Of a stretch of 45,120 nt of DNA, positions 17,364 to 28,572 are shown in pieces. The notes under the pieces were generated by a model. It worked only from the letters and a program-made list of their open reading frames with translations, searched no databases and was not told the origin of the DNA. Numbering within the stretch: position 1 is the first letter of the stretch; every line of letters starts with the position of its first letter. The stretch lies in NCBI GenBank assembly GCA_016934575.1, contig JAFGSN010000098.1:1-45120 (forward strand), read 5' to 3'. Made by a program: the position numbers and the translations under genes. The stretch comes from Vicinamibacteria bacterium (GTDB lineage Bacteria; Acidobacteriota; Vicinamibacteria; Fen-336).

Positions 17364-18182
17364 TCAGCTACGACATGATTCCCGCCCGCGTCGGGCGACC
17401 GATCTCTCGGCGATCGTCTCTCGTTTTCCCAGGACGGCCACTCGCTTGCCGCTTTGTCGTTGCTCGCGGAAATCGTGTCCTTCCATCGGGACAACCAGGC
17501 ACATCTCCATCAGTCGGGAACGCAATCTGTGTCCGATACGTTCCACGAGATATTCCTGTCGTTTCATCGAATCGTCCAGCAAGGCTTCCCTGGGCCGAGC
17601 GTCGGAATAGTTGGTTGTAATTAGCGTCACGCGGTTGTTCATGTATCGGCTATTGAGGACGAAGAACAGCGTGTCGTGCATCCAGTCCGTGATCTTCCAT
17701 GCGCCCAGATCGTCGAGCAGCAGCACATCCGTATCGATGACCGGCTGAAGAACCTGCAACTCCGTCATGCGCACGTCGTGATTGTAACTGTTCCTGATCT
17801 CGCGAAGCAGCTCGTTGAAATCCCAGTACTGACCGCGCGCCCTGTTTCCGGTGACGAGTTCACGAAGCACGCTCACCGCGAGATGCGTCTTGCCGACGCC
17901 GGGGCCGCCGGTGAAGATCAGGCCCAGCCCTTCGTCGGGCTCCGCGAAAGGATACCCTTGGCAAAAGCTCATCGCCCGCTCGAGAGCCGCCCGCAACGAC
18001 GGATTGCCCGGCTCGAACGTCCCCAGATTGCAGTGCGCGTAACGCGGCGGAATTCGGCATGCAATCGAAAGATCGTCTTCATTATCCCCGCGTGCACTAC
18101 GACAAATACAGGGTCGCGCGTACTCACGATCCTCGCTGATCACGATCTCGAACCCGGTGCCGTCGCATCGTTCACAGATCAA
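17364..18182 (-). CDS. DnaC/IstB-like AAA+ ATPase with N-terminal zinc motif
   Basis: 272 residues. The N-terminus has two Cys pairs (CERC at 3-6, CIC about 25-27) that could bind zinc. The AAA+ core has Walker A GGPGVGKTH (about 91-99), Walker B LLLDDLG, and a sensor-type TLITTN. This is the DnaC helicase-loader / IstB family. No IstA transposase or terminal repeats are nearby, so a replication or recombination accessory ATPase is more likely than a transposon part. Its TTG start overlaps the stop of the upstream sigma-factor gene (TTGA), so it is translated from the same mRNA by coupling. The C-terminal ~25 residues are Arg/Ser-rich and unlike the family. Confidence 0.8.
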   Translation of the reverse strand: MICERCDGTGFEIVISEDREYARPCICRSARGDNEDDLSIACRIPPRYAHCNLGTFEPGNPSLRAALERAMSFCQGYPFAEPDEGLGLIFTGGPGVGKTHLAVSVLRELVTGNRARGQYWDFNELLREIRNSYNHDVRMTELQVLQPVIDTDVLLLDDLGAWKITDWMHDTLFFVLNSRYMNNRVTLITTNYSDARPREALLDDSMKRQEYLVERIGHRLRSRLMEMCLVVPMEGHDFREQRQSGKRVAVLGKRETIAERSVARRGRESCRS

Positions 18183-19075
18183 TTGAGATACCCCCGCAAT
18201 CCGTCAGCCGCCTTGAGGCGGCGCAACCTCTCTTTGGCGCGGCTCTCGATCTGCCGGACGCGCTCGCGCGTGAGCTGCAATCGATCGCCGATCTCTTGGA
18301 GCGTACGCGGCTCATCGCCATCCAGACCAAACCGCAAGCTGATGACCTCACGCTCTCGGGCGTCGAGACCGTCGAGCAACGCGCGGACCTGGTGCGCAAG
18401 CGATTCACGGATCAGCTCCTCTTCGACCGTGGGGATCGACTCCTGCTCAAGAGTGTCTTCCAGCATGAAGCTGCCGTCATCCGCAATGGCCGTCGATAGC
18501 GAAATCTCAGATCCCGTAATGGCACGCAACGTCGCAATCTCCCGCCGACTGAGCTTGGTCGCTTCTGCGATCTCGTCCTCCGTCGGTAAATGATCCAGCT
18601 CCGCCGCCAGACGATCCTCGGCGAAGCGGAGTCTGTGCATCTTTCCGGTGACCTTGTGCGGAAGTCGAAACGGACGTGCCTGCAGCGACAGCGCGTTCAG
18701 GATCGCTTGCCGTATCCACCAGACGGCATACGAGATGAAGCGTACGTTGCGCTCCGGGTCGAATCTCCGCGCGGCTTCGATCAAACCGAGATTCCCTTCA
18801 TGAATCAAATCGACGAACGCGAGCCCATACCCGCGATAGCGTTTGGCGTACGAGACGACGAAACGAAGATTGGTTTCGACCAGCCGATTCAGCGCGTCGC
18901 GATTCCCCGCTCTGATGCTTCGGCCGACTTCCTTCTCCTGCTCCGGCGTCAGTTGCGGGAAACGGGATATGGCATGCAGATATGCCTGAAGACTGTCGCC
19001 GGACGCATCTGACTCCGTTCGCGAGGCACCGAGCCCTCGTTTCTGATCGGCGCGATTCTTGTTGCGGGAAGGCAT
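18179..19075 (-). CDS. group-2 sigma-70 factor (RpoD/RpoS-like, no region 1.1)
   Basis: 298 residues from the ATG at 19075, placed just downstream of a minus-strand TATAAT at 19108-19103; a longer frame would start upstream of that promoter. Region 1.2 begins DSLQAYLHAIS. Region 2 reads NLRFVVSYAKRYRG, then LIHEGNLGLIEAARRFD, with the promoter-melting RFISYAVWWIRQAI. Region 3 and region 4 (REREVISLRFGLDG, then LQLTRERVRQIE) follow. The absence of region 1.1 and the short length mark an alternative, not housekeeping, sigma. Directly following dnaJ-hspR suggests a stress role; that is inference. Confidence 0.9.
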   Translation of the reverse strand: MPSRNKNRADQKRGLGASRTESDASGDSLQAYLHAISRFPQLTPEQEKEVGRSIRAGNRDALNRLVETNLRFVVSYAKRYRGYGLAFVDLIHEGNLGLIEAARRFDPERNVRFISYAVWWIRQAILNALSLQARPFRLPHKVTGKMHRLRFAEDRLAAELDHLPTEDEIAEATKLSRREIATLRAITGSEISLSTAIADDGSFMLEDTLEQESIPTVEEELIRESLAHQVRALLDGLDAREREVISLRFGLDGDEPRTLQEIGDRLQLTRERVRQIESRAKERLRRLKAADGLRGYLN

Positions 19076-19102
19076 AGTCGGCGCGTCAAGCAAAGACGAT
19101 CG

Positions 19103-19108
19103 ATTATA
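19103..19108 (-). promoter_or_regulatory. -10 box for the sigma-factor/ATPase operon
   Basis: Perfect TATAAT on the minus strand, 28 nt before the chosen sigma-factor ATG. No good -35 box at 16-18 nt, so the promoter may need an activator or alternative holoenzyme. Confidence 0.45.
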
Positions 19109-19137
19109 ATGCATCCGCTCTCGAACACGTGGAGCAT

Positions 19138-19554
19138 TCACAAAGACTCGGAAGGCTTCGGCACGATTTGTCGCGGCGGCAGTTTTACGAGCGCTTGCTC
19201 GAAGCGTTCCTTCCAACCATCGCGGTTCGCGCGCGCCAGCTCTTCCTGAACATAAGCGACGAACTCAGTGATCTCGGCCTGCATGCGCTCCATCTTGGCG
19301 CGCATGTTGAGGACGACTTCGACGCCGGCCAAGTTCACTCCCAGATCACGCGTCAGGTTGAGTATCGTCTCGAGCTGCCACAAGTCTTCTTCCGAGTATA
19401 GGCGCGTATTTCCTTCCGTACGCGAAGGCTTGAGCAAACCCTCGCGCTCGTATAGACGCAGCGTCTGTGGATGTATGCCAAAACGCTTGGCCACGACGCT
19501 GATCATGTAGTAACGACCTTCGCCAGTCTTCGTGCGACTCGCTCGACGCGCCAT
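19138..19554 (-). CDS. hspR: heat-shock repressor HspR (MerR family)
   Basis: 138 residues. An N-terminal MerR-type winged helix: VVAKRFGIHPQTLRLYEREG recognition region, then LKPSRTEGNTRLYSEEDL, and LTRDLGVNLAGVEVVLNMR leading to the dimerising helix. HspR normally represses dnaK, dnaJ, clpB and lon operons until unfolded protein titrates DnaK. The gene starts 3 nt after the dnaJ stop with GGGAG upstream, the classic dnaJ-hspR order, so it is probably autoregulated. I found no canonical HAIR operator upstream of dnaJ or dnaK. Confidence 0.92.
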   Translation of the reverse strand: MARRASRTKTGEGRYYMISVVAKRFGIHPQTLRLYEREGLLKPSRTEGNTRLYSEEDLWQLETILNLTRDLGVNLAGVEVVLNMRAKMERMQAEITEFVAYVQEELARANRDGWKERFEQALVKLPPRQIVPKPSESL

Positions 19555-19557
19555 TTT

Positions 19558-20688
19558 TCACTCCCGCCTTTCACGCGTGCGATCGACGCCGGCTTCGCTC
19601 GGCGCAATCGCGGCGTTAACAAGCGCTCCGCGGGGATTCATGGGATTACGTTCTGCGACTTGACGCAGAAGCTCGCGGCTGTGATCGTCGCTGATCGTCG
19701 GCACAACAACTTGAATCACGACGTAGAGATCCGCGCGACTCTTCTTTCCTATCCGCGGCGCTCCTCGCCCGCGCAGCCGAAAACGCTGCCCCGCCTGCGT
19801 GCCCGTGGGAAGCTCGATCGTCACCGGGCCGTCCGGCGTGGGAACCTCGATATGACCGCCGATCGCCGCCTCCACGATCGTCACCGGCACGGTGCATACG
19901 AGATCCTCTCCCTCCCAGCGATAAAACTCATGCGGCTCCACTTCGATCGTCAATATCAGATCTCCCGATGCTCCGCCGCGACTTCCGGCGTTGCCGGCGC
20001 CGGGGATCCGCAACTGACTGCCGTCACGGACGCCTTTGGGAATCTCGACGTCCAGCCACTCGCTCTGAGTCAGGCGGCCGTCTCCACGGCATCGGTCGCA
20101 GCGACGAAACGCGATAACGCCGCTGCCGGAGCAATCCGGGCAAGCACGAGCGAATACCATGTGGCCTCGACGCGCCTTGATGATCCCGGCGCCCTGGCAG
20201 CTCTTGCAAGCGATGCCGTCGCGCGCCACAACTCCCGCCCCCGCGCACACGGGGCAGTGATCCAATCGAACGAGGTGAACACGCCGTTTTGTTCCAGAAA
20301 AAATCTCGTCAAGACCCACGCGTGCGGTGAGCTGCAAGTCCTCGCCCACGGTGTTTTCAACAGCAAATCGGTCCAATGTCGATCCGAAGATCTCTTTGAA
20401 ACCTACGCTCTCCTGAATCGCCTCGGCCGAGAAATCGAAGCCCTCGAAACCAATGCGAGACGTGTCGTCAGAACCGGAGGCAATGACGTCTCCACGATCG
20501 TATGCCGCGCGCCGCTCGGGGTCCGAAAGCACCTCGAAGGCTTGAGCAATCGCTTCGAAGCGTGAAGCGGCGATCTTGTCTCCCGGATTGAGGGCAGGAT
20601 GCAGCATGCGAGCACAACGTCGATACGCACGTCGAATCTCGGCCGCTGTCGCCTTAGGGGGAATTCCCAATTTATCGTAGAAATCCAT
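19558..20688 (-). CDS. dnaJ: DnaJ-type co-chaperone with HPA instead of HPD
   Basis: 376 residues. J-domain at 1-70, short Gly/Phe region, zinc-binding domain at about 145-220 with four CxxCxGxG repeats (CPVCAGAG, CKSCQGAG, CPDCSGSG, CDRCRGDG), then the two C-terminal substrate-binding beta domains. The canonical His-Pro-Asp loop that triggers DnaK ATP hydrolysis reads His30-Pro31-Ala32 (codon at 20593-20595). Asp is required for DnaK stimulation in known J-proteins, so this copy may bind substrate but poorly activate DnaK, or use a different contact. It is co-transcribed with hspR and shares promoter 20729-20756. Another standard DnaJ probably exists elsewhere in the genome. Confidence 0.92.
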   Translation of the reverse strand: MDFYDKLGIPPKATAAEIRRAYRRCARMLHPALNPGDKIAASRFEAIAQAFEVLSDPERRAAYDRGDVIASGSDDTSRIGFEGFDFSAEAIQESVGFKEIFGSTLDRFAVENTVGEDLQLTARVGLDEIFSGTKRRVHLVRLDHCPVCAGAGVVARDGIACKSCQGAGIIKARRGHMVFARACPDCSGSGVIAFRRCDRCRGDGRLTQSEWLDVEIPKGVRDGSQLRIPGAGNAGSRGGASGDLILTIEVEPHEFYRWEGEDLVCTVPVTIVEAAIGGHIEVPTPDGPVTIELPTGTQAGQRFRLRGRGAPRIGKKSRADLYVVIQVVVPTISDDHSRELLRQVAERNPMNPRGALVNAAIAPSEAGVDRTRERRE

Positions 20689-20728: not shown

Positions 20729-20756
20729 AATATAGACGTGAGCGCCCAATAGTCAA
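20729..20756 (-). promoter_or_regulatory. sigma-70-type promoter for dnaJ-hspR
   Basis: On the minus strand, TTGACT (20756-20751), 16-nt spacer, TATATT (20734-20729), about 40 nt before the dnaJ ATG. The -10 sequence is the same as in the dnaK promoter. Confidence 0.65.
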
Positions 20757-20846: not shown

Positions 20847-22184
20847 TCAAACCGACGGCGTTCTGCCGCAACACTTTTTGTAGATACGGCCACTTCCGCA
20901 TGGACAAGGCGATTCTCGCCTCGGCTTCCCGCCGCTAACGGCGGGTCGCTCCCGCTGTCGCGCCCAGGCCATGACGTTTGCCGGCGGTCTATGACACGAC
21001 AGTTCGTCCGCCATGAAACGCATGTAGGGATCAATATGCCGGAAGAACATCTGAAACGCCGGGCACAGGTAACTGATCGGGGGCTCGCTATCGCCCGTCG
21101 ACACGAACCGGTGCTTGGGGCATCCTCCGCTGCAGGCGAAGAGCACGTCGCATTCTCGACAACGCCGCGGAAGATCCGCCTTGGACTGACCGAAGCGTCT
21201 CTGGTCCGCCGACAGAGCCATCGCGCCCAGCGACGCCTGCAACACATTGCCGAGACGATGCTCGGGAAATACAAAGTGATCGCAGGAGTAGACGTCCCCG
21301 TTATGCTCGATGACCATCGCGTCGCCGCAGACCGCTCGCGCTGTGCACAAGCTCGGCTCGCGTCCCATCCAGCATTCGAGCGCGACGTCGAAGGCTTGAA
21401 CGTAGCTTCGTCCGACGTCCCTGCGCACCCAGTCATCGAAGACGGCGCACAGGAACCTCCCATACTGCTCAGGTCCGACGGACCATTCGGCGATTCGAGC
21501 CTGACCCCGATACGCCGGCGGAACAATCGCCAGACCCACAGGCGTCGGCTTCGCGGCGATCCTCTCGACAATGGGGATGAACTGCATGAAACGGCTTCCC
21601 GCCTCACGTAAGAATCGATAGATTTCGAGCGGTCGTTCCCCGTTGTCCCGATGTACGGCGGTCAGAGTGTTGAATTCGACGCCCTGTCGTCGCAAGAGCA
21701 TGATCGCGCGTTTCACGCGATCAAAGGTCGGCTGACCGCCGCGGTCGATACGATGACGGTCATGGTATTCCCTTGGTCCATCGATCGATACGCCTACCAG
21801 AAAACGATTCTCGGCAAGGAAGGCGGCCCACGACTCGTCGAGCAGCAAGGCATTGGTCTGGATGGCGTTTTCGATACGCTTGCCCTGCGCGTATCTACGC
21901 TGAAGCGCGACGACGCGCCTGTAGAAGTCCAGTCCAGGAAGAGTCGGCTCGCCCCCTTGCCAGACGAAGTTTACGACGGGCGCGTCTTGTTCTTCGATAT
22001 ACTGGCGAATGAACTCCTCGAGCACTTCAGCCGGCATCGTCCATCTCGAGGCGTCCGGAAACAGACGCGTTTTTTCAAGATAGAAGCAATACGTGCATTT
22101 GAGATTACAGAAAGGCCCCGTCGGCTTGGCAAGAACGTGAAAAGCCCGCGCGCGTCTCGCAGAACCCGGCGCTCGACCGGTCAT
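20847..22184 (-). CDS. radical SAM/SPASM sulfatase-maturase-like enzyme with SEC-C tail
   Basis: 445 residues. The radical SAM cluster CNLKCTYC (Cys26, 30, 33) and the following FYLEK are diagnostic for anaerobic sulfatase-maturating enzymes, which oxidise Cys or Ser in sulfatases to formylglycine. WQGGEPTL and VSIDGP match the SAM-binding strands. A Cys-rich SPASM region (about 290-375: CGDAMVIEHNGDVYSCDHF, then CRECDVLFACSGGCPKHR) binds two auxiliary Fe-S clusters. The extreme C-terminus adds a SEC-C zinc motif (CPCGSGRIYKKCCG). No sulfatase is in the window, so the partner is elsewhere, or the enzyme matures another peptide. Confidence 0.88.
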   Translation of the reverse strand: MTGRAPGSARRARAFHVLAKPTGPFCNLKCTYCFYLEKTRLFPDASRWTMPAEVLEEFIRQYIEEQDAPVVNFVWQGGEPTLPGLDFYRRVVALQRRYAQGKRIENAIQTNALLLDESWAAFLAENRFLVGVSIDGPREYHDRHRIDRGGQPTFDRVKRAIMLLRRQGVEFNTLTAVHRDNGERPLEIYRFLREAGSRFMQFIPIVERIAAKPTPVGLAIVPPAYRGQARIAEWSVGPEQYGRFLCAVFDDWVRRDVGRSYVQAFDVALECWMGREPSLCTARAVCGDAMVIEHNGDVYSCDHFVFPEHRLGNVLQASLGAMALSADQRRFGQSKADLPRRCRECDVLFACSGGCPKHRFVSTGDSEPPISYLCPAFQMFFRHIDPYMRFMADELSCHRPPANVMAWARQRERPAVSGGKPRRESPCPCGSGRIYKKCCGRTPSV

Positions 22185-26516: not shown

Positions 26517-26529
26517 TGCTTGACAAGCA
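26517..26529. promoter_or_regulatory. palindrome overlapping the dnaK -35 box (candidate operator)
   Basis: TGCTTGACAAGCA is a 6-bp perfect inverted repeat around one base, covering the -35 hexamer. CTTG/CAAG cores are like HspR HAIR half-sites (CTTGAGT-N7-ACTCAAG) but without the 7-bp spacing. Confidence 0.45.
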
Positions 26530-26548
26530 CTAAATATCGGCGTATATT
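26520..26548 (+). promoter_or_regulatory. near-consensus sigma-70 promoter for the dnaK run
   Basis: TTGACA (26520-26525), 17-nt spacer, TATATT (26543-26548). Predicted start near 26555, giving ~135 nt of leader. Confidence 0.8.

Positions 26549-26688: not shown

Positions 26689-28572
<1,884 letters not shown>

Follow-up and report, generated by a model that had tools for sequence, protein, structure and literature searches.

The window (the whole stretch of DNA analysed, 45,120 nucleotides) contains a dnaJ gene followed by hspR and, on the opposite strand, a dnaK gene (Table 1). The DnaJ protein is composed of a J-domain, a short linker with some glycine and phenylalanine, four CxxCxGxG zinc repeats and a DnaJ_C domain. 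Its translation includes RRCARMLHPALNPGDK, and the loop after helix II reads HPALNPGD, confirming the alanine in place of the aspartate that a sequence-only reading of this DNA had noticed; the orthologues of two related genomes (G006 and G012) also carry HPA. That reading had described the zinc and substrate domains as complete, which is borne out by the eight zinc cysteines and by Pfam matches that are all above the cut-off: DnaJ (PF00226, residues 2-64, 74.8 bits against a cut-off of 27.8), the zinc domain (PF00684, residues 145-204, 39.0 against 32.7) and DnaJ_C (PF01556, residues 119-330, 150.3 against 26.6).

The N-terminal J-domain, the four CxxCxGxG repeats and DnaJ_C are those of a class-A J-protein, the His-Pro-Asp that a canonical J-protein carries between helices II and III is replaced by HPA, and a recognisable J-domain with a non-conservative HPD change is what characterises type IV; judged from its sequence, the protein is class-A by architecture and type IV by motif. 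It scores 309.5 bits against the NCBIfam equivalog DnaJ_bact (TIGR02349), below the cut-off of 377.2, a shortfall that need not stem from the aspartate. AlphaFold, run on three sequences, gave a poor whole model (mean pLDDT 62.4) in which the J-domain alone is usable, with helices at residues 3-7, 15-29, 38-55 and 57-64 (block pLDDT 70-86).

Table 1. Features of the dnaJ-hspR and dnaK regions of the window
Feature	Positions	Strand	Basis or remark
Sigma-70 family factor gene, 3' of hspR	18179..19216	-	Superfamily model above cut-off; RpoS and RpoD equivalogs below
hspR, MerR-family heat-shock repressor, 138 aa	19138..19554	-	Start 3 bases past the dnaJ stop codon
Clade-A dnaJ paralogue; product of 376 aa with class-A architecture	19558..20688	-	ORF translation, Pfam
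Glu45 (E. coli DnaJ counterpart Lys48)	20554..20556	-	Alignment of clade-A rows
His30-Pro31-Ala32 replacing His-Pro-Asp	20593..20601	-	Ala codon GCC
Sigma-70-like promoter TTGACT-16-TATATT before dnaJ-hspR	20729..20756	-	Consensus match only
Putative radical-SAM sulfatase-maturase gene	20847..22184	-	Named from translation
Inverted repeat TGCTTGACAAGCA	26517..26529		Read by eye, window only
Near-perfect sigma-70 promoter TTGACA-17-TATATT before dnaK	26520..26548	+	Read by eye
dnaK	26689..28572	+	ATG start; 6 kb from dnaJ, other strand

The position of dnaJ beside hspR, also part of the sequence-only reading, holds, the HspR protein just passing the NCBIfam HspR equivalog (NF047375, 105.5 bits against a cut-off of 105). 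The listed TTG start of the sigma-70 factor gene overlaps hspR, and a later start is likely; this gene is followed by one for a DnaI-like ATPase, all of whose family matches fall below the cut-off. Matches to a sigma-70-like promoter such as the one before dnaJ numbered four in the stretch scanned, with 1.8 expected by chance. The HAIR operator has the consensus CTTGAGT-N7-ACTCAAG; this sequence has no match with three or fewer mismatches in the whole window, and operators in this phylum may differ from it. The gene upstream of dnaJ codes for a putative radical-SAM sulfatase-maturase with a C-terminal SEC-C-like tail (CPCGSG...CCG) and occupies the place that dnaK has in most relatives.

The DnaK of the window has residues matching R167 and Q378 of E. 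coli DnaK, and its gene is followed by ORFs resembling hsp20, groES and groEL (names read from the translations). The inverted repeat TGCTTGACAAGCA covers the -35 element of the dnaK promoter and is a candidate operator, which could be the HspR operator of this lineage.

The genome, a draft of 247 contigs, codes for eight Pfam J-domains. The second, canonical dnaJ envisaged by the sequence-only reading is found on contig C130, within an hrcA-grpE-dnaK2-dnaJ locus; its product is a zinc DnaJ with HPDRNPGD that passes the DnaJ_bact equivalog with 418.3 bits. A CbpA-like protein with HPD is encoded on contig C23.

The hspR-linked paralogue and the recurrence of non-HPD motifs

Clade A is our name for the hspR-linked DnaJ paralogue of this acidobacterial class. 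The P0001 search, which covered 60 genomes including its own, returned a full-length, hspR-linked DnaJ set at 39-60% identity and a second DnaJ set at 31-40%. hspR lies directly downstream of the clade-A dnaJ in 121 of 122 loci (the exception, L115, is at a contig edge), and dnaK lies directly upstream in 104 of the 122, at gaps of -148 to 174 bases that leave no room for grpE; in several of the remaining 18 loci the upstream sequence is too short to judge. The dnaK-dnaJ-hspR order is on these counts probably ancestral, and the arrangement of the window, with dnaK 6 kb away, derived, the operon dnaK having probably been lost or moved in this genome. Two relatives, G006 (contigs C101 and C326) and G012 (C61 and C60), each have two dnaK genes close in sequence to that of the window: the one directly before the HPA dnaJ is 71-73% identical to it (partial matches) and the other 78-79%, identities that suggest that the window genome retained the second dnaK and lost the operon copy.

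The sequence-only reading had also stressed that this dnaJ is not next to dnaK. This is correct for adjacency in the window, although a dnaK is present in the same window and is the upstream neighbour in most orthologous loci, and the observation loses weight because dnaK is immediately upstream in 36 of 38 non-HPD genomes (33 of the 36 that are rows of the clade-A tree, plus G114, G064 and G186). Only the window genome and G094 depart from this, the latter having just 154 bases of contig upstream. The roughly 1.5 kb upstream of dnaJ likewise lack dnaK in five HPD relatives, three from the same family (G005, G011, G013) and two from the same order (G014, G015); being apart from dnaK and lacking the aspartate are therefore not coupled.

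The frequency of the altered motif was estimated by searching 193 genomes of the class for the pattern A-R-x-[Y/F/L/H/Q]-H-P-x-x-N-P-G-[D/E], which also accepts S at the second place and a stop at the fourth. With C, G or T as the middle base of the codon that replaces Asp, the pattern is present in 31 genomes (26 Gly, 3 Ala, 2 Arg), and with A as the middle base and a first base other than G in seven (all Asn). No genome is common to the two lists, and the total is therefore 38 of 193 (26 HPG, 7 HPN, 3 HPA and 2 HPR), a count that does not extend to HPE (codon GAR) and is a lower bound because copies off the flanking pattern are missed (for example those of clade A in family f3, which have HPD). 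The pattern with Asp was present in 143 of the 193, other J-proteins being counted too. The non-HPD genomes are spread over 10 of the 19 families of the class, and 36 of the 38 were placed in clade A by similarity, G064 (a fragment at a contig edge) and G186 (no locus) being placed by their position next to dnaK. Among 55 clade-A rows obtained from the homology search alone, free of any motif, eight are non-HPD.

The sequence-only reading had raised the question of whether hspR-linked orthologues share the variant. Across the class a non-HPD motif occurs in the 38 genomes just counted; within the same family 11 of the 13 other members have HPD and two (G006 and G012) have HPA; in several genera the non-HPD motif is consistent. 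A phylum-wide draw of 396 genomes was searched with two patterns, the HPD control and the one whose variable codon has C, G or T in the middle. The latter matched seven genomes, all within this class; none of the 350 genomes outside the class had it, and 173 of them had the HPD motif (the split was counted by hand).

The clade-A tree comprises 122 rows, of which 36 are non-HPD (the motif matches minus G064 and G186) and 86 are HPD (from the homology search and some of the Asp-motif matches listed), a set enriched for non-HPD forms whose proportions are not frequencies. It was built without the motif columns by a quick method with SH-aLRT values only and no bootstrap. At least 12 changes between Asp and non-Asp are needed on it, nine of them forced by well-supported (starred) branches, and 16 when all five residues are distinguished. 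The HPA of the window and that of G006 and G012 sit on different branches, a single origin still being conceivable. Asp is taken as the ancestral state from its predominance, the tree method giving no direction.

For the canonical paralogue the pattern search covered Asp and codons with C, G or T in the middle: HPDRNPGD was found in 105 of the 193 genomes and the other form in two, neither near a DnaJ. All 30 canonical copies retrieved from non-HPD genomes have Asp, 29 as HPD and one with the His masked. Non-HPD forms have thus arisen repeatedly in the hspR-linked paralogue, and none was found in the canonical one.

Constraint on the J-domain and on its DnaK partner

The eight zinc cysteines are present in all 36 non-HPD and all 86 HPD rows. 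All eight non-HPD rows that the homology search supplied, a small set, retain the loop His and Pro and the Asn after them; the presence of these residues in 36 of 36 is built into the motif search. The helix-II positive contacts are mostly retained in non-HPD rows, although at position 19 (E. coli R22) 11 of the 36 have Glu and three have Ser, and at position 23 (E. coli K26) eight have Leu; HPD rows have only K, R or Q at both positions. In several members of family f4 (e.g. L078, L080 and L076) helix II reads VERAYLRLARRYHP[GR] or IERAYLRLARRYHP[GR], with Glu and Leu at the residues matching R22 and K26, so that by its sequence the DnaK-docking surface of these members is changed as well as the trigger.

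In the window protein R19, R23 and R24 are retained (E. coli DnaJ positions are taken to be those of the window protein plus three). In the column of Glu45, 65 of the 86 HPD rows have Arg and one has Glu; among the 36 non-HPD rows, only the window protein has Glu there. The corresponding K48 of E. coli DnaJ is described as reaching D477 of DnaK (PMC8215388), and is thus a DnaK-contact residue.

The dN/dS of the J-domain lies between 0.048 and 0.239 in 11 of 12 non-HPD pairs (0.054-0.262 when the motif codons are omitted) and between 0.016 and 0.157 in 12 HPD pairs. The medians are 0.119 and 0.079 (p 0.08), and 0.146 and 0.087 without the motif codons (p 0.045); the L066/L067 pair, with almost no synonymous change, was excluded from both tests, and some pairs share a branch, L088 and L028 each entering two. 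Amino-acid distances between tree cherries show no clear J-domain excess in non-HPD copies. Values far below 1 are also found in f4 and f6, families of which every sampled member, or almost every one, is non-HPD. These ratios indicate that the non-HPD J-domain is under purifying selection, mildly relaxed. Two of the 38 non-HPD genes have broken frames in the assemblies: in that of G109 (L094) a TAG interrupts helix II immediately ahead of HPN, and that of G118 (L077) is split; they would be either pseudogenes or assembly errors.

On the side of DnaK, the equivalents of R167 and Q378 are retained in 30 of 30 DnaKs from non-HPD genomes and in 29 of 29 readable ones from HPD genomes. When the equivalents of R167, Q378, L391 and P419 were compared, no difference was seen between these 30 DnaKs and 30 dnaK loci of HPD genomes, which are a mix of operon and other DnaKs. 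A compensating DnaK suppressor of the R167H type was looked for and none is seen, the R167 equivalent being unchanged in all 30 DnaKs of non-HPD genomes.

A J-protein without the trigger aspartate

J-domains are described as docking first, the aspartate then perturbing, in a second and mechanistic step, the interaction network of a DnaK arginine; DnaJ carrying D35N does not function, a defect that DnaK R167H suppresses (PMC7289447). The change of Asp to Asn is reported to have abolished stimulation in every system tested (PMC8215388). HPN occurs naturally in seven genomes of the class, among them G109, where a stop codon stands just before it. Since Asp is what perturbs Arg167 of DnaK, the non-HPD clade-A protein, with its trigger gone and its body retained, would be unable to stimulate ATP hydrolysis by DnaK; this silence is not certain, because a designed J-like sequence without HPD is reported to stimulate Hsc70 (PMC13254874).

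The reading that we tentatively place first, at somewhat short of even confidence, makes it a type IV J-protein of class-A architecture that holds clients, perhaps HspR, without triggering DnaK, triggering being the task of the canonical DnaJ. It would still bind unfolded clients, perhaps HspR among them, and in many lineages could dock on DnaK through helix II, acting as an ATPase-silent client holder or a DnaK recruiter within an HspR feedback loop, with triggering left to the HPD DnaJ of the hrcA-grpE locus. In family f4 and genus g103 helix II is altered too and the contact with DnaK may itself be fading, which counts against docking there. The gene neighbourhood suggests HspR as the partner, by hspR adjacency and by analogy with the DnaK co-repressor of Streptomyces and with CbpA-HspR of Helicobacter pylori. 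A role of the window protein as an HspR-linked holdase or sensor, proposed by the sequence-only reading, is plausible as a hypothesis.

The closest rival, possible but less probable, is relaxed redundancy, in which the trigger residue drifts because a canonical DnaJ is present, and the protein goes on holding clients while what is left of its J-domain slowly fades. The replacements fit such drift (G, N and A are one base change from GAC or GAT, and R is one step from G), as do the higher dN/dS of the J-domain outside the motif in non-HPD pairs, the loss of helix-II contacts in f4 and g103 and the two broken genes of G109 and G118. However, dN/dS stays far below 1 even in f4 and f6, the loop His, Pro and Asn are kept in the small homology-found set, and the cherry distances lack a clear J-domain excess; the mild relaxation speaks for some drift, and the lasting constraint against plain decay.

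Alternatively, the J-domain might trigger its own DnaK in the absence of Asp, by means of different contacts adapted to that partner. In favour of this are the persisting constraint and the place of dnaK as the next gene in nearly all non-HPD genomes, which would make a private co-adaptation possible. Four chemically different residues replace the aspartate, however, and the four DnaK positions surveyed are the same in HPD and non-HPD genomes, so that the alternative DnaK contact put forward by the sequence-only reading finds no support and this explanation is improbable. An assembly error or pseudogene in a single draft genome would need one base to change Asp, in an assembly of many contigs, but it is a very remote explanation given the intact frame of 376 codons, the HPA of G006 and G012 and the HPG, HPN or HPR of 35 further genomes, which together make a sequencing error unlikely as the source of HPA; as a general cause, sequencing error or pseudogene formation is ruled out by recurrence and purifying selection.

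A stronger form of the client-holding reading, which we regard as unlikely, is that in this class selection has repeatedly converted the DnaJ of the HspR-linked dnaK unit into an ATPase-silent J-protein. Docked on DnaK, it would deliver HspR or shield it, and the complex of repressor and chaperone would last rather than be processed. If true, a regulatory J-protein would have been created by removing the trigger and keeping the handle, and this may be the first class-A and the first bacterial case of selected HPD loss; a literature search for non-HPD bacterial DnaJ found no such case described. The dozen or so changes within a single orthologous gene, many of which have a close HPD relative, amount to a natural replicate experiment that comes with an unchanged canonical paralogue and a fixed gene neighbourhood. 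Matched HPD/HPx pairs could be compared for stimulation of the ATPase, docking on DnaK, holding of clients and control of HspR. Whether HPD is lost by accident or selection, and whether type IV proteins act by competition with functional J-domains or by recruiting Hsp70, are questions posed in a review (PMC13254874), which such a matched set could answer.

Relation to known systems

The type IV J-proteins described in that review, such as Pam16 and human DNAJB13 (HPL), likewise have a recognisable J-domain with a non-conservative HPD change and are presumed unable to stimulate Hsp70 (PMC13254874). The examples given there are eukaryotic and of class B or C, in contrast to a bacterial class-A protein with a full zinc domain, and the clade-A orthologues show the change recurrently, with a minimum of 9-12 changes. 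With canonical bacterial DnaJ the window protein shares the J-domain, zinc domain and DnaJ_C, all above Pfam cut-offs, but it differs in the absence of HPD and in the DnaJ_bact score that the C130 paralogue exceeds.

CbpA of H. pylori lacks a zinc domain, which the window DnaJ has, and in the latter HspR binding is putative. In both, the gene of the J-protein comes immediately ahead of hspR within one operon, the gene order seen in all but one of the clade-A loci. H. pylori CbpA binds HspR and hinders its DNA binding, and preliminary results cited in the same source make it a DnaK co-chaperone (PMC6032397).

The dnaK, dnaJ and hspR genes also stand together in most relatives examined here, as in Streptomyces, whose dnaK operon includes hspR; the differences are the lack of space for grpE between dnaK and dnaJ and the non-HPD DnaJ of 38 of the 193 class genomes. 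DnaK is reported as the co-repressor of HspR in Streptomyces (PMC6032397). A natural change of the aspartate is also found in DjlB and DjlC of E. coli (HPE), which work with HscC. With Glu the charge is retained, and this is described as the sole change of Asp that is tolerated (PMC13254874), whereas the replacements in clade A, in a search made without HPE, are G, N, A and R.
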